Source of the DNA: Alphaproteobacteria bacterium
GTDB lineage: Bacteria > Pseudomonadota > Alphaproteobacteria > Micropepsales > Micropepsaceae
Assembly: GCA_947475445.1 (NCBI GenBank)
Contig: CANJLC010000009.1
Coordinates: forward strand, 1 to 64,000
Length of the DNA stretch: 64,000 nt
Direction of reading: 5' to 3'
Both the position numbers and the translations under genes were made by a program. Below are positions 8,578-23,654 of this stretch, piece after piece (positions within the stretch are counted from its first letter, which is position 1; every line of letters starts with the position of its first letter). The notes under the pieces are model-generated. The model did no database searches. It worked only from the letters and a program-made list of their open reading frames with translations, and was not told the origin of the DNA.

Positions 8578-9648
8578 ATGAATCGCACATTGTTATTGGG
8601 CATGGCCGCTGTGGCGGCAATTTCGGCAACGGCTGTGATGGCGGTGCCTGCCGGTTATCCGATTCAGGTCGTGCCGGTCGGCAAGGGACCTTTTAATTTC
8701 CCGCCGGGCTTCGGGATCGACTTCCCCAAGGTCAAGATCATGGTCACCGAAAAGTTGGCCCCGAACCTTGTCATCCTGCACGGCAATGCCGGGGTTGATG
8801 CGGGTCATCCCGATGGCTCAGGCGGCCGCGTTGCGGTGCTTTATGGCCCCGATGGCGTGCTGATGGTGGATACCGAAAACAAGCAGGTCGCCGAGAAGAC
8901 CCTCGCGGCCGTTCGCACCCTTTCCAAAGGGCCGATCAAGTTCGTGATCTCCAGTCACGCGCATGGCGACCATACCGGCGCCAACGCTTTCTTCGCCAAG
9001 CAGGGCGCCATCATGATCGGCCAGGAAAACCTGCGCTATGAAATGATGCCCGCCCCGAATGCCTCTGCCCAGCAGAAGGCGAATTACGAACCCGGCGGCC
9101 TGCCGTTCATGACCTACCAGTATGATCCGGCCAAGCCGGGCACGCCGGCCCTTACCATCAAGATGAATGGCGAAATCGTGGACGCGATCCCGATGATGCC
9201 GTCGCATCTGGGCGGCGACACGGTGGTGCGCTTCCGCAATGCCAACGTGATCTATATCGAAGACTTCTTCCGCAACTTCGGCTTCCCCTTCGCCGATCAA
9301 GGCAATGGCGGCTCGATCAAGGGCATGCTGGATGCGATCGACCTGTTCTCCAAGCTGTCCGACGACAACACCATCCTGATCCCCGGCCACGGCACGCTGA
9401 TCCACAAGAAGGATCTGCTGCCCTACCGCAAGATGCTGGTGGACGTCATGGCCAAGGTGAAAGACATGAAGGGCCAGGGCAAGTCGCTGAAGGACGTGCT
9501 GGCGTCGAACGTGCTCAAGCCGTATGAAGGCGGCACGGATGGCGACACGCAATCGTCCAAGGACCGCTTCCTCACGGAGGTGTATGCCGAAGTGAACGGC
9601 CTGCCGCCGATCGTCAATGGCCGGCGCACGATGCCGAAGATGGACTGA
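8578..9648 (+). CDS. Secreted metallo-beta-lactamase-fold hydrolase
   Basis: A 356-residue protein with a Sec signal (MNRTLLLGMAAVAA, cleavage near AVMA at 22). The binuclear zinc motif is at 127-132 (HAHGDH), a second ligand region is PSHLGGD near 207, and GHG near 265 supplies the last histidine. Members hydrolyse lactones, beta-lactams, thioesters or phosphoesters; the exact substrate is not evident. The frame stays open upstream to 8245, but the ATG at 8578 is preferred because AGGGTGGGG precedes it and a normal signal peptide follows. It lies between an exported VOC protein and an exported penicillin acylase. A strong terminator follows at 9683. Confidence 0.83.
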   Translation: MNRTLLLGMAAVAAISATAVMAVPAGYPIQVVPVGKGPFNFPPGFGIDFPKVKIMVTEKLAPNLVILHGNAGVDAGHPDGSGGRVAVLYGPDGVLMVDTENKQVAEKTLAAVRTLSKGPIKFVISSHAHGDHTGANAFFAKQGAIMIGQENLRYEMMPAPNASAQQKANYEPGGLPFMTYQYDPAKPGTPALTIKMNGEIVDAIPMMPSHLGGDTVVRFRNANVIYIEDFFRNFGFPFADQGNGGSIKGMLDAIDLFSKLSDDNTILIPGHGTLIHKKDLLPYRKMLVDVMAKVKDMKGQGKSLKDVLASNVLKPYEGGTDGDTQSSKDRFLTEVYAEVNGLPPIVNGRRTMPKMD

Positions 9649-13378: not shown

Positions 13379-13687
13379 CTAGCGGCCGTAGCCGTAGCCG
13401 CGATCGTCATAGCGATCATAGCGATCGTCGTAATAGCCACGCGGCGGGGGCGGCGGCGGGGCATAATAGTCGCGGTCATAATAGGGATCGTCATAACGCG
13501 ACGACGAAGAAAGGACGCTCAGGGCCATCAGGCCGATGCCAAGTCCGATCAGGGCGCCGCCGGCGTTTCGGTTGCCGTAACCGCCATGATAGCTGCGGCT
13601 ATAGCCGCCATGGCCGCGCGGCGCTGCGCTGGCGGCAGTGGCGCTCAACAGTGTCAGCGCCAGGGCGGCGGAAAGAAGGCGTTTCAT
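13379..13687 (-). CDS. Small secreted Gly/Tyr-rich protein of unknown function
   Basis: A 102-residue protein. Residues 1-22 are a Sec signal (MKRLLSAALALTLL...ASAAP). A glycine/tyrosine-rich stretch (GHGGYSRSYHGGYGNRN) precedes one hydrophobic glycine-zipper-like segment (GGALIGLGIGLMALSVL, about 43-59). The tail is Asp/Tyr/Arg-rich with a run of six prolines. It may be a small envelope protein. I do not recognise a family. AAGGATAGAGACC precedes the ATG, and a strong terminator follows the stop, so this is a single-gene unit. Confidence 0.7.
   Translation of the reverse strand: MKRLLSAALALTLLSATAASAAPRGHGGYSRSYHGGYGNRNAGGALIGLGIGLMALSVLSSSSRYDDPYYDRDYYAPPPPPPRGYYDDRYDRYDDRGYGYGR

Positions 13688-15202: not shown

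Positions 15203-15206
<4 letters not shown>
14343..15206 (+). CDS. Lytic transglycosylase, SLT domain
   Basis: A 287-residue protein. It has a basic N-terminus and a membrane segment at about 20-36, so it is exported or anchored. The SLT domain spans about 78-200. It contains MRSESGGR with catalytic E105, GAMGLMQVMPGTW, the NVYAGAAYLRWL block and AAYNTGPGNL, all characteristic of soluble-lytic-transglycosylase folds that cleave the MurNAc-GlcNAc bond with anhydro-ring formation. CAAGGGAATG precedes the ATG. Its last 4 bp overlap the convergent fadJ-like gene. Confidence 0.85.
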
Positions 15207-17245
<2,039 letters not shown>

Positions 17246-17292: not shown

Positions 17293-18351
17293 CTAGTAGG
17301 GCAGGGCGTTGGGTTTGACGGGTGTTCCGGCTGGCGGTTTTTTGGGAAACAGGCCTTCCAGGAAGCCGGCCAGCTTTTCCAGGGCGGCCTGGCTGGTGGC
17401 CGGATCGGGCGCCGCGCCATCGCGGGCAAAGTCGCGTCCCACGCCGGGATAGATTGCCAACTGGGCGGGCACATTGCGGGCCCGCAATGCGTCGTACAAT
17501 TTCTGCGACTGTTTGGACGACACGCTCATGTCCTGCGCGCCATGCTGGATCAGGAAGGGCGGGCTCATCGGCTGGATGTAAGCCAGCGGGCTGGCGTTGC
17601 GCGCGACGCCGATGGCGCACAAGGACGGCTCGCAGCCCAAATAATCGCCGGCATCGCTTTTGTCCGGCGCAGGCTTGCCCAGATCCGCCGCCATGCTCTC
17701 GAAATCGCTTACGCCATACCAGTCGATTACGCCTTGCACGCAATCGGATGGCGCCCCGGCTTCGCCCTTGGGCTCCAACGTGGCGACACCGCACGACACT
17801 CCGGCCAGCGCGGCCAGTTGCCCGCCCGCGCCCGCACCCCAAACCGCGATGCGCGTGTCATCCAGGTTGAAATCCGTCTTGTGGCTGCGCAGCCAGCGAA
17901 TGGCGCTTTTGACATCCTGCAGCGCGGCCGGGAAAGGGGCTTCGCCGGACAGGCGGTAATTCACGGATGCTACCACATACCCGCGTGCCGCCAGCGCGTT
18001 GAGCAAAGCGGGAAAATCGCTGAAGCCGCCATTGTGACGGGAATCGCCGCTGTTCCACTCGCCGCCATGGACAAACACAATGCCGGGACGGGGAAAGGAT
18101 TTTGCCTGCGGCAAATAAAGATCAAGCGTCAGCGGGCGAAAGCCCTTCAGCGTGGCATAGACCCTTTCGCTCATCGTGACGATGCCTGCCGGCGGCTTAA
18201 CTTCTGCCTTGGGGACCTTGGGCGTTTTGACGGCTCTTGGCGCGGACTTGGTTTTGGCGGGTTGCGGCCCGGCGGGTGCGTTGTGGGCCGGCGGCTTGGC
18301 CGCGCCCCAAAGCAGCGGCAGCGCCAGAAAAATCACGGGAAGGATTTTCAT
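17293..18351 (-). CDS. Exported alpha/beta hydrolase-fold protein lacking catalytic Ser and His
   Basis: A 352-residue protein with an N-terminal signal (MKILPVIFLALPLLWGAA) and an Ala/Pro/Lys-rich linker to about 55. The core looks like a BD-FAE/carboxylesterase: VFVHGGEW (oxyanion motif, about 93-99), VNYRLSGEAPFPAALQDVKSAIRWL, and D274 in HGAQD. The nucleophile elbow, normally GxSAGG, reads G172-A-G174-A-G-G, so Gly replaces the catalytic Ser. The usual PGxGH reads PGVGR with R306, and no His occurs after residue 270. I infer that it is not a classical esterase. The frame stays open to 18441; the ATG at 18351 is chosen for the signal peptide, has no Shine-Dalgarno, and follows TTATTT by 6 bases. 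Confidence 0.78.
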   Translation of the reverse strand: MKILPVIFLALPLLWGAAKPPAHNAPAGPQPAKTKSAPRAVKTPKVPKAEVKPPAGIVTMSERVYATLKGFRPLTLDLYLPQAKSFPRPGIVFVHGGEWNSGDSRHNGGFSDFPALLNALAARGYVVASVNYRLSGEAPFPAALQDVKSAIRWLRSHKTDFNLDDTRIAVWGAGAGGQLAALAGVSCGVATLEPKGEAGAPSDCVQGVIDWYGVSDFESMAADLGKPAPDKSDAGDYLGCEPSLCAIGVARNASPLAYIQPMSPPFLIQHGAQDMSVSSKQSQKLYDALRARNVPAQLAIYPGVGRDFARDGAAPDPATSQAALEKLAGFLEGLFPKKPPAGTPVKPNALPY

Positions 18352-18392: not shown

Positions 18393-19352
18393 CTAGCGGC
18401 TTTCCAGCCAGTGGATGGCGAAAAGGCGATTGTCGTCGCACCAGACCGCGCGGGGCGCAAAGCCGGCCCGCACCGCAATCTCGCGGAAGCTTTCGATGGA
18501 ATATTTGTGGCTGTCCTCGGTATGCACCGCTTCGCCCGCGGCGAACTCGATCCTGCCGTCGCCCAGCCTTGCGCTTTGGCGCTTCAGGCTGACCAGGTAC
18601 ATTTCAATCCGCTGCGCCCGGGGGTTGTAGGGCGCATAATGGGCAAAAGCGTCCAGGTCGAAATCCGCGTCCAGCTCGCGGTTGGCGCGGGCCAGAAGGT
18701 TCTTGTTGAAAGCGGCGGTGACACCGGCCGCATCATTATAGGCGGCATGCAGAATCGCCGGGTCCTTCACCAAATCCACGCCCACCAGCAAGCCGCCGCC
18801 ATTCAGCATCTCGCGCATGCGCCTGAGCAGTGCCATCGCCGCATCGGGCGAAAAATTGCCGATGGTGCTGCCGGGAAAGAAACCGGCCTGCCGTGTCGCG
18901 CCCGGCATCATCGCGAAATTGATGGGCAGGGTGAAATCGCCTTCCACCGGGCGCAGCGCCAGCGCGGGATAATCCACCGCCAGCTGCTGCACGACGCTGC
19001 GCAGATAGTCGCCCGAGATATCAATCGGGCTATAGCCGTGCGGGCTGTCCAGCGCATCCAGCAGGATGCGGATTTTGCGCAAGGCGCCGGCGCCAAATTC
19101 CACCATCTCGGCGCCGGGTCCGATCAGGCTGGCGATCTCGGCGGCATGGCGGCGCAGCAGCGCCACTTCGGTGCGGGTCTGGTAATATTCCGGCAGGACG
19201 CAGATGGCGTCGAACAGGGCCGAGCCTTCTGCGTCATAGAAGTATTTGCAGGACAGCTCCTTGGGTGTCCTGCGCAGGCCTTCCTCCAGGCCGCGGGCAA
19301 ATCCGCCCGCCTGCGCGCAAGGGGCTACCGCTTCCATGCGGCGCGCGTCCAT
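18393..19352 (-). CDS. egtD: L-histidine N-alpha-methyltransferase EgtD
   Basis: A 319-residue SAM-dependent enzyme that trimethylates histidine to hercynine, the first step of ergothioneine synthesis. Recognisable blocks are KYFYDAEGSALFDAI, LPEYYQTRTE, EFGAGALRKIRILLDAL (SAM-binding), YSPIDISGDYL, FFPGSTIGNF, GGGLLVGVDLVKDP and the C-terminal HTEDSHKYS. Length is that of the family. The start overlaps the egtB stop as TAATG and follows GGAGGATTT, so the two genes are translationally coupled. The next gene on the strand begins 41 bp downstream. Confidence 0.95.
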   Translation of the reverse strand: MDARRMEAVAPCAQAGGFARGLEEGLRRTPKELSCKYFYDAEGSALFDAICVLPEYYQTRTEVALLRRHAAEIASLIGPGAEMVEFGAGALRKIRILLDALDSPHGYSPIDISGDYLRSVVQQLAVDYPALALRPVEGDFTLPINFAMMPGATRQAGFFPGSTIGNFSPDAAMALLRRMREMLNGGGLLVGVDLVKDPAILHAAYNDAAGVTAAFNKNLLARANRELDADFDLDAFAHYAPYNPRAQRIEMYLVSLKRQSARLGDGRIEFAAGEAVHTEDSHKYSIESFREIAVRAGFAPRAVWCDDNRLFAIHWLESR

Positions 19353-20541
19353 TACAAATCCTCCGCAAGGCGAATGCCGCTGAATTGCCAGCGCGCCGAG
19401 GGCGGGAAGAAATTGCGGTAGGAGAGGCGCATATGCTCCGGCGGCGTCGCCACGCTGCCGCCGCGCAGCACCAGCTGGCCCACCATGAACTTGCCATTAT
19501 ATTCCGCGGCAATGCCTTCAAAGGGCTTGAAGCCGGGATAGGGATCATAGGATGAGCGCGTCCATTCCCACACTTCGCCATGGGCAAAGCCCTTTGCTGT
19601 CGCTTCCCATTCAAATTCGGTTGGCAGCCTTTTGCCGGCCCATGCGGCGAAAGCCGCCGCCTCGAAAAAGCTGACATGCTCCACCGGCGCATGTGGATCG
19701 AGCGGCTGCACGCCTGCCAGGGTGAACTGGCTGCGGCTGCCGTCATTGTCGCGCAGCCAGTAGAGCGGCGCGTCCCAGCCCTGCTCCTGCACAAGCGTCC
19801 AGCCGTCGCTCAGCCATAATTCCGGGCGGCGGTAACCGCCATCCTCGATGAAGGCGCGATATTCGCCATTGCTCACCGGCGCGGAGGCGATGCGAAAGGG
19901 ATAGAGGAACACCTTGTGACGCGGCGTCTCGTTGTCGAAGGCGAAGTCCGTTCCGCCATGCCCGATCTCCACCAGCCCGCCGTCATGCTTGACCCAATCG
20001 CGCGCCCGCGGAATGCGCGGAGCCGGCGGTTGCTTGCGATAGGCCGGCAGCAAGGGATTGGCGAAGAAAGCATGCTTGATGTCGGTGAGGATCAATTCCT
20101 GGTGCTGCTGCTCATGGTGCAGGCCAAGCCGGATGCGCGCTTGCAGCCCGTGATCCACGCCGCGCAGCAGCAGCGATTCCATCGCCGCATCGACATGGCG
20201 CCGCCAGGCCATCACCGTTTCCAGCGCCGGCTTGGTGATCAGCCCGCGCTGGGCCCGGGGGTGCCGCGGTCCCAGTGCCTCGTAATAGGAGTTGAACAGA
20301 TAGGCGAAACTGGGATCGAAGACCTCATAGGCCGGGTCCTCGCCCAGGATCAGGGCCTCGAAGAACCAGCTGGTATGGCCCAGGTGCCATTTGACCGGGC
20401 TGGCGTCCGGCATGGACTGGATGGCGCAATCTTCCGCCGTCAGGGGCGCGGCCAGGGCCTCGCTATGGGCCGTACAGCCCGCCAGGCACGCAATAGCGCC
20501 TCGCCGGCGGGTTCGCGATGGATACCGGTCACGGCGTGCAT
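19352..20541 (-). CDS. egtB: Ergothioneine sulfoxide synthase EgtB, with a one-base 5' frameshift
   Basis: EgtB joins hercynine to a thiol donor with O2, using non-haem iron. The main frame has the iron-binding histidines in KWHLGHTSWFFE and HHEQQHQE, then a C-terminal FGE-sulfatase-like domain (VSNGEYRAFIEDGGY...WEWTRSSYDPYPGF...LRGGSVATPPEHMRLSYRNFF). The natural start is ATG at 20541 after AGGAAATTGC. That frame reads EALLRAWRAVR, a typical EgtB opening, and then leaves the EgtB frame at about 20470, where AHSEALAAPL continues one frame over. One G seems missing in CGGCCC. Left as is, the first frame ends after about 35 codons. An internal ATG at 20413 would keep the iron ligands. It is either a true mutation or a sequence error. 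Confidence 0.85.
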
Positions 20542-20652
20542 GCAATTTCCTGATGCGATGGTGCTGGGCAAAGGAACGGTTGCACGTCCCCGAGGTTCCA
20601 TCGGTCGAACTTACCTGACCCTCCGGGACAGGCAATTTCAGGGTTAAATGCC

Positions 20653-20667
20653 ATTTTGTAACAAAAT
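20653..20667. promoter_or_regulatory. 15-bp palindrome between egtB and the beta-barrel gene
   Basis: ATTTTGTAACAAAAT is a perfect 7-1-7 palindrome in the 288-bp divergent gap, 112 bp before egtB. The AT-rich base content makes a chance origin less easy to exclude. It could be an operator. Confidence 0.3.
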
Positions 20668-20755
20668 TACACAGTTTTGGGGCGGGACAGCCACTCCCAA
20701 GGCCCAAGAATCCGGTTTTGTGACTTGAAAACATCAACCATTTCGCGGCTTTTAC

Positions 20756-20785
20756 TTGAGACTGGAACGCCCCCTCTGGTATTTT
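20756..20785 (+). promoter_or_regulatory. Candidate promoter for the beta-barrel gene
   Basis: TTGAGA and TATTTT are separated by 18 bp and end 44 bp before the start codon at 20830. Recognised by eye only. Confidence 0.3.
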
Positions 20786-20829
20786 ACTTCCATGAAAGCC
20801 AAAGGCTTGAATCCTTGGGTTTGAGGGAC

Positions 20830-21921
20830 ATGAACCGTATTTGGACCGCTGCCTTGTTTGCAGCCGGCCTTGCCGCCTTTGGGCCGCAGGCTGGCGCGGC
20901 GGAATTGCGCGTTCCGGTCAGCCTGACATCCTTTGGCGCCGCCCAGGCCCTGTCATCTTACCAGATGTCCGCCGCCGGCCTGGCGATGGGTCCGGCGCAA
21001 ACTTTTTCGCGCAGCGAATTTTCGCGCACGCCCGTCTATGGCGGCGCCACGTTCCTGCAAAGCTTCGCGGCCTCGTCCGCCTTCAACGAGAATTTCGCGC
21101 TCGACAGCGGCTACAATCTCGACCTGGCGCAGCGCTTCGACAATTACACCGGCGCGAAATCGCCGCTGCTGGGCCCGGCCGGAACCCTGGGCCTTGCCAA
21201 TGGCGGCCATTATGCCGGCATCACCTATGTGCCGTCGCCGTCACTGCGCGTGCGCGTAGGCGCGCAATTCAAGAATGACCGGCTGGACAGTTTCACTTTC
21301 GATCCCGTGCAGGGCGTGCCGCTGACCTACGAAACCGGCGAGCAGCGTTCCTTGCTGGCGGGCGCATCCTGGAATTTGCTGGACTGGGCCGGCCTCAGTG
21401 TCAGCGGCATCATCAACACCCAGAAAGGCCAGGGCTTCGTATCGCTGTCGCGCACCGCGCGCGCCGGCCGCGCCACCACCGCTGGCCTCAACGTATCGGC
21501 GCAGATGAGCCTTGGCGCCGGCTGGGTGACCACGGCGGCTTTCAGCGAAGGGCTGTCCCAGCTCGACCAGAAGATCGGAGCAGCGCAAACGGTGGAAAGC
21601 CATTCCTACTCCATCGCCATCGCCAAGCATGGCCTGTTCGGCGCGGACGCGCTGGGCTTCTCCTTCAGCCGTCCCAGCCCCAGCCTGCTTGAGAGCGGCT
21701 TTGAAATGGTGGCCGCCTCGGGTGACCTGCCGCCGGCCTTTGCCGTTGGCGGCCGCCTGCCGGGCGGAACGCCGGAAACCGACCTGCAGCTGGGTTATGT
21801 CACAAGCTTCCTGGACGGCGCCCTGGCGCTGCAGGCCAACGCGGCCTACCAGATGAACTATCAGGGCCAGACCGGCGCCACCTCGCTGGCGGTCCTGTCC
21901 CGCGCCAAGATCAAGTTCTGA
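20830..21921 (+). CDS. Putative outer-membrane beta-barrel protein
   Basis: A 363-residue protein with a Sec signal (MNRIWTAALFAAGLAAFGPQAGAAE, cleavage near 24). The mature part is rich in alternating hydrophobic/polar stretches with Gly and aromatic residues (HYAGITYVPSPSLRVRVGAQF, LLAGASWNLLDWAGLSVSGI, DLQLGYVTSFLDGALALQANAAY). It ends in Phe (SRAKIKF), the C-terminal residue favoured by the BAM machinery. This suggests a barrel of roughly 12 strands. I do not recognise a specific family. The frame is open upstream to 20677, but the ATG at 20830 gives the signal peptide and follows TTGAGGGAC. Confidence 0.65.
   Translation: MNRIWTAALFAAGLAAFGPQAGAAELRVPVSLTSFGAAQALSSYQMSAAGLAMGPAQTFSRSEFSRTPVYGGATFLQSFAASSAFNENFALDSGYNLDLAQRFDNYTGAKSPLLGPAGTLGLANGGHYAGITYVPSPSLRVRVGAQFKNDRLDSFTFDPVQGVPLTYETGEQRSLLAGASWNLLDWAGLSVSGIINTQKGQGFVSLSRTARAGRATTAGLNVSAQMSLGAGWVTTAAFSEGLSQLDQKIGAAQTVESHSYSIAIAKHGLFGADALGFSFSRPSPSLLESGFEMVAASGDLPPAFAVGGRLPGGTPETDLQLGYVTSFLDGALALQANAAYQMNYQGQTGATSLAVLSRAKIKF

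Positions 21922-21995: not shown

Positions 21996-23654
<1,659 letters not shown>

Follow-up and report, generated by a model that had tools for sequence, protein, structure and literature searches.

The locus and its hydrolase-like protein

In the 64,000-nucleotide stretch of alphaproteobacterial DNA analysed here (the window), a gene for an exported, hydrolase-like protein lies on the minus strand between a fadB-like gene and the ergothioneine genes egtD and egtB (Table 1). The short gap to egtD is as originally predicted, and the two genes have the same orientation. Two plus-strand genes that recur at this locus lie beyond egtB. The window also encodes, at 13379-13687 on the minus strand, a small Gly/Tyr/Asp-rich protein of 102 aa with a hydrophobic N-terminus.

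Table 1. Genes, protein regions and key codons at the locus (window coordinates)
Feature	Position	Strand	Remarks
Enoyl-CoA hydratase/3-hydroxyacyl-CoA dehydrogenase (fadB-like)	15203..17245	-	Downstream, 47 bp away; Pfam
Exported BD-FAE-family alpha/beta hydrolase-like protein without catalytic Ser and His	17293..18351	-	352 aa, ATG start
Codon 306, CGC (Arg) replacing catalytic His	17434..17436	-	CAC in G071 and G081
Codon 274, GAC, catalytic-acid Asp	17530..17532	-	Kept in 11/11 Ser-less copies
Codon 174, GGC (Gly), nucleophile elbow	17830..17832	-	Ser in intact sisters (TCG in G071, TCT in G081); aligned to Ser128 of 6tkx
Oxyanion HGG motif (H95 G96 G97), kept	18061..18069	-	Alignment and invariant-column count
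Pro/Ala/Lys-rich linker, residues 19-56	18184..18297	-	Sequence
Probable signal peptide, residues ~1-18	18298..18351	-	Judged by eye from sequence
egtD, L-histidine N-alpha-methyltransferase	18393..19352	-	41 bp upstream; TIGR03438 above cut-off
egtB ORF	19352..20737	-	True start probably inside; TIGR03440 above cut-off
'OMP', recurrent neighbour at the locus	20677..21921	+	No Pfam match; 'outer-membrane-like' is a guess from reading the sequence
ABC-F-type ATPase, recurrent neighbour at the locus	21996..23654	+	Named by eye

The protein matches the Pfam profile PF20434 (BD-FAE) over residues 76-289 (E 4e-56; 190.3 bits against a curated cut-off of 26.8) and has the HGG loop of the family, with Gly174, Asp274 and Arg306 in place of the Ser-Asp-His triad. 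A phmmer alignment to the solved BD-FAE structure 6tkx places residue 174 on chain residue 128 and residue 274 on 237; it stops at 305/268, and residue 306 falls on 269 by an extension of one residue. The triad of that enzyme is given in the cited account as Ser128, Asp237 and His269 (PMC8165983). Position 306 also falls on the His column in the profile alignment to 6nkf and in the MAFFT alignments, and the only histidines of the window protein are at 23, 95, 106, 157 and 270. Alignments and codons thus confirm what the original prediction had read at this site: Gly for Ser174 and Arg for His306, with the right numbering, no His further downstream, and a fold framework in which the oxyanion motif is retained. 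The window protein belongs to PF20434 by sequence, but it should not be called an esterase, since it fails the triad that defines the enzyme.

The N-terminus of the window protein is hydrophobic (MKILPVIFLALPLLWGAA), as in most relatives, the exceptions being the starts chosen for G039 and G082. Cysteines 187, 204, 240 and 245 are found in 17 of 17 rows of the gene group described below and would be fitting for an exported protein with putative disulfides. AlphaFold models built from 4 and 5 alignment rows were of low confidence (mean pLDDT 50.1 and 56.5) and were set aside for arguments about the pocket; a viral_contigs scan for deeper alignment rows found no relative. Esterases and lipases ranked first in a Foldseek search with the five-row model, with TMq 0.57-0.67 over the top 20 and rmsd above 5. 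For the probable alpha/beta-hydrolase fold, the evidence from sequence is much stronger than that from the structure models.

Recurrent loss of the catalytic residues

Relatives were obtained from a scan of the genome collection, which gave four loci, from a family-level search, which matched 20 of 96 genomes at E<=1e-30, and, for wider relatives, from order, class and plasmid searches, bringing the total alignment to 37 rows. The 96 genomes of the family search were also those of the order search, a looser class search with five candidates scored per genome added nothing, and five of the 39 plasmid records found were fetched. The genomes are mostly drafts, the window's own assembly being in 29 contigs. 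One locus (L014) repeats another (L003) and was used once; the distant hydrolases L006, L009 and L010 are outside the 37 rows. Columns 174 and 306 were removed before tree building and codon modelling. Neither tree includes six distant rows (G016, G052, G017, G067, G004 and G008), and the tree of the 37-row alignment also lacks G005b; all of these were still counted in the Ser/His motif counts for that alignment.

A single group of 17 rows (support 100/98 and 100/99 in the two trees) contains 16 copies from 15 genomes of the window's genus and one copy from a Sphingomonas metagenome assembly. Ser is absent from position 174 in 11 of the 16 genus copies (10 of the 15 genomes), where the residue is Gly (window, G033, G043), Ala (G000b, G060, G082), Asp (G080) or Glu (G072, G032, G074, G056). 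Five genus copies (G071, G081, G039, G078 and G025) have both Ser and His. So do, at the catalytic place, all 21 remaining rows, namely the Sphingomonas copy and the 20 rows outside the group; these more distant relatives comprise seven from the window's genus and 14 from outside it. Because the nucleophile is missing from most of the group's genus copies and present in every distant relative, the two substitutions go beyond a chance peculiarity of a single assembly. The orthologues with the same substitutions that the original prediction had proposed to look for were found in part: the same kind of loss recurs in the genus, but the complete triad is present in the closest orthologue, that of G071, which is 70% identical and has matching gene neighbours.

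In nine of the ten genomes that carry a Ser-less copy, the search at E<=1e-30 gave just one match, so the losses are not accounted for by a redundant, still intact close paralogue; the tenth, the window's own genome G000, has two matches, both Ser-less. The second G000 copy (Ala174; L008 2348-2495, end of contig C23) continues into sequence found again, at 99% identity, on contig C25, which means either an interrupted copy or a repeat at the contig end. The G082 copy (L044 from 8526) is part of a 563-codon open frame that extends well beyond the usual end of the protein, and the start used for it in the sequence set gives no signal peptide.

In the trees, the window groups with the intact G071 and G081 (support 91/98 and 96/98). 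A second group is made up of six rows that all lack Ser (93/93 and 92/97, not starred), and seven rows at another locus are a mixture of Ser-bearing and Ser-less copies. A single clade of Ser-less rows is rejected (AU p 2e-81). The loss of Ser takes at least four changes of state, three of them forced by starred branches, and a losses-only count by eye on the tree gives six (window, six-row group, G060, G043, G000b and G082). Reversion of Ala to Ser, which takes one base, could lower this count, since the mixed group at the second locus would then need fewer losses, with four changes in total.

The Ser codon is TCN in the five intact genus copies, and all 11 Ser-less codons start with G (GCG, GCC, GGC, GGA, GAG, GAA and GAT). 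Ala GCN is one step from TCN, and the Gly, Glu and Asp codons are one step past Ala. His is retained in the Ala copies G060 and G082 and gone in all three Gly copies; the C-terminal His region is missing from the alignment in the third Ala copy, G000b, and in G056, and these two copies could be decaying. Codons and tree, rather than ancestral reconstruction, suggest that Ser probably changed to Ala first and that both positions drifted afterwards. The G080 copy, with Asp174 and a His aligned near 306, fits this order less well. The Ser at +1 in G082 and G060 (GxASGG) appears to be left over from a GxSSGG motif and is probably not an elbow nucleophile.

Selection on the Ser-less copies and gene neighbourhoods

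A branch codon model of our own implementation was applied to 280 codons from 17 taxa, the tail of G000b beyond query position 291 being masked here and in the invariant-column count. Omega was estimated as 0.139 for the six-row Ser-less clade, 0.137 for the window tip, 0.135 for the other Ser-less tips and 0.187 for the rest, the tip values (that of the window included) being mixtures of time before and after the loss and the long branches being saturated, up to 6.8 neutral units. Setting omega to 1 costs 2dl 449 for the six-row clade, 32 for the window tip (p 1.5e-8) and 221 for the other Ser-less tips. Given the low branch omegas and the rejection of omega=1 for each Ser-less class, there is no sign of weaker constraint in the Ser-less proteins. 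Tests for stronger constraint on the Ser-less branches are mixed and are not to be over-read (p 0.18 for the six-row clade, 0.016 for all Ser-less branches, 0.12 for three classes and 0.011 for the four-row clade).

Pairwise NG86 estimates of dN/dS are not uniformly low. The sisters G074 and G033, 87% identical and both without Ser and His, give 0.12 at dS 0.59, and 0.18-0.23 is the range for the remaining pairs of the four related Ser-less copies; the value is 0.23 for the window and G071, 0.40 for G060 and G039, and 0.10-0.29 among intact pairs. Sixty-nine columns are invariant in seven Ser-bearing relatives, and the least kept of these in the Ser-less copies are Ser174 (0/11, by definition of the group) and His306 (3/9 scorable). 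At the other 67 columns 695 of 730 cells are kept, with His95, Gly96 and Asp274 retained in all 11 copies. Ser174 and His306 are again the least kept of 37 columns when a wider set of 11 Ser-bearing rows is used. Such a distribution would be expected of a protein that still uses its fold and cleft but has no use for the two catalytic side chains.

Two marks of the pseudoenzyme class were found, namely loss of catalytic residues from an enzyme family and selection after the loss, the latter within the six-row and four-row Ser-less clades. The original prediction of a protein retained despite the loss of its triad is borne out by the intact frame, by purifying selection on the Ser-less branches, including the dN/dS check on the window tip, and by the similar losses in orthologues. 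Its suggestion of a new chemistry fared less well: no replacement nucleophile was found among residues common to the Ser-less copies and absent from intact congeners, nor any common new functional residue. Ala119 alone occurs in at least 80% of the Ser-less copies and in none of the five intact congeners, and ten columns distinguish the six-row clade alone, none of them obviously catalytic.

The window's locus carries the gene in nine genomes, in eight of which (G056 excepted) a fadB-like or acyl-CoA dehydrogenase gene adjoins it. The fadB-like gene is directly adjacent in G071 and G081, and an acyl-CoA dehydrogenase gene stands between in G072, G033, G032 and G080. The OMP gene is nearby in eight of the nine, the contig of G032 being too short to tell. 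A gene for a cation/proton antiporter with a universal-stress domain, identified by a Pfam run on the G033 copy, adjoins the gene in G033, G074, G080 and G032. At the second locus a type I secretion ABC transporter gene is the neighbour in five genomes (G039, G060, G043, G025 and G078), followed in the first three by genes for an HlyD-type protein and a member of a large protein group (L042, L045, L050); repeats were tested in the G060 member only, a protein of 1698 aa with RTX and cadherin-like repeats. No neighbour common to both loci, and so no shared pointer to a ligand, was found, and there is no glycoside hydrolase among the annotated neighbours.

Interpretation and comparison with known systems

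The original prediction had read the position of the gene after egtD as a sign of co-expression with ergothioneine synthesis. An accessory protein of this pathway would agree with the shared strand and the 41-bp spacing, with the adjacency of egtD in G071 and G081 as well, and with the somewhat higher frequency of egtD in carriers of the gene (10 of 15) than across the whole set searched (51 of 96 genomes at E<=1e-40). However, egtD-egtB stands between the gene and the OMP gene in only four of the nine same-locus genomes, adjacent in three and one gene away in G056, where the antiporter gene intervenes. At the same threshold egtD was not detected in the carriers G072, G074, G033, G032 and G080, three of which are less than 95% complete; together they make up all but one row of the six-row clade that is Ser-less throughout. 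In six other carriers, all drafts (G039, G043, G060, G025, G078 and G082), egtD is on a different contig from the gene. In four of seven egt regions (G018, G039, G054 and G060) egtB-egtD lies 0.6-3.3 kb from an OMP relative (47-49% identity) and the gene under study is absent from the region; an OMP relative near egtB was not seen in the other three (G069, G076 and G043, where the contig begins inside egtB). The window protein, moreover, has a probable signal peptide, unlike the cytoplasmic enzymes EgtB and EgtD. Because egtD adjoins the gene in few same-locus genomes and is undetected in five of the 15 carriers, ergothioneine is not the common thread of the carriers; neither conserved linkage nor co-occurrence with egtB/egtD is supported, and a role in this pathway is very unlikely. 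Sequencing or assembly error, for which the draft state of the 29-contig assembly might speak, is an extremely improbable source of the substitutions, given that position 174 is altered in ten genomes, with different codons, and that GGC at codon 174 differs from the TCG and TCT of the sisters at all three bases.

Two further explanations take the substitutions as real. It was originally reasoned that a close orthologue with the full triad would mark the window gene as a decaying copy; G071 has exactly such an orthologue, and the second copy in the window's own genome is cut at its C-terminus by sequence repeated elsewhere in that genome. Against a recent inactivation in the window's species, a pseudogene in the making, stand the low omega of the window tip, an end branch not clearly longer than that of the intact sister (0.20 vs 0.18) and the survival of the full open reading frame, which stayed stop-free in 3 of 2000 runs when neutral evolution was simulated at 0.48 substitutions per site, a value equal to half the dS between the window and G071. 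Moreover, two or more replacement steps separate codon 174 from a TCN Ser codon, so the change at this position is not of very recent date. We consider decay quite unlikely, the codon models and NG86 pairs rejecting it. An enzyme that still works with different residues or by a different reaction, for example with an acidic nucleophile in the Glu- and Asp-bearing relatives, would account for the retention of Asp274, His95 and Gly96 in all Ser-less copies and for Glu or Asp at position 174 in five of the six rows of the six-row clade. The G080 copy (L053 ~8822-9640) even combines Asp174, Asp274 and a His aligned near 306, which we take to be the letters of Asp-nucleophile alpha/beta hydrolases. 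Yet the residue at 174 differs even between the close relatives G074 (Glu) and G033 (Gly), with Gly or Ala in other copies, the shared residues of the Ser-less copies come down to Ala119, His270 is Gln in G072, and the His of G080 aligns one residue short. As G080 sits among Glu and Gly copies, drift is a likelier source of its Asp174 than Asp-nucleophile chemistry, and a changed enzyme is, on the whole, unlikely.

The gene probably encodes a secreted pseudoesterase that has evolved repeatedly and been retained for a non-catalytic role, likely one of binding. Such a protein would be secreted, probably to the periplasm, and derived from a BD-FAE-type carbohydrate/carboxyl esterase. With nucleophile and general base gone, ester hydrolysis by Ser-His-Asp should be impossible, a prediction made at the level of sequence; the sequence framework, the four cysteines, the oxyanion loop and the acid residue are kept in a protein that, by the codon models, is still maintained by selection. 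That Asp274 is retained might point to some residual chemistry, although a structural role for this residue is also possible. The proposed course begins with Ser to Ala (TCN to GCN), His being still present in both scorable Ala copies, after which position 174 would drift to Gly, Glu or Asp and His would erode in most copies. On the simplest account, catalysis may have been dispensable because the family, we infer, already had a non-catalytic job, most likely in the envelope, where it would bind a protein partner, an acylated glycan or some other ester-like ligand. More tentatively, and with somewhat less than even confidence, we propose that a non-catalytic envelope function predates the loss and that hydrolysis was discarded about six times independently in one genus by way of Ser to Ala, a process in progress in some copies (Ala, His kept) and complete in others (Gly or Glu without His); intact and dead orthologues share one chromosomal place.

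To our knowledge, pseudoenzymes have often been studied after a single old loss. One genus here offers a graded natural series of intact copies, copies with Ser changed to Ala and His kept, and copies with both residues gone. As intact and Ser-less orthologues occur at one chromosomal place, the series makes directly testable whether the non-catalytic function preceded the loss of catalysis. For 11 of the 16 genus copies, an esterase label assigned automatically would probably be incorrect.

Among known systems, BD-FAE (PDB 6TKX/6XYC), a bifunctional feruloyl/acetyl xylan esterase of PF20434, is of the same family as the window protein by the profile match and residue correspondences given above; the window protein differs in lacking Ser and His and in having an N-terminal linker. 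BD-FAE is described as coming from a polysaccharide utilization locus (PMC8165983). The best PDB sequence match of the window protein (2.4e-32), and its best PDB fold match from a low-confidence model, is Lip_vut4 (6NKF), a rumen metagenome enzyme called a lipase by its depositors, whose elbow, unlike that of the window protein, is GDSSGG. A literature search found no bacterial pseudoenzyme of the BD-FAE family among the matches listed, judged by title and start of abstract. The alpha/beta-hydrolase fold without a functional triad is reported to serve adhesion or as a chaperone domain in neuroligin, gliotactin, glutactin, neurotactin and the C-domain of thyroglobulin (PMC5943944); these cholinesterase-like proteins are animal, belong to another subfamily and are functional analogues only. 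The evolutionary pattern proposed here is like that described for the fungal Ssd1/Dis3L2 pseudonucleases, in which active-site mutations arose at least four times with a second function conserved (PMC8097288); fold and function are unrelated, and there, according to the same account, the retained role, RNA binding, is known.
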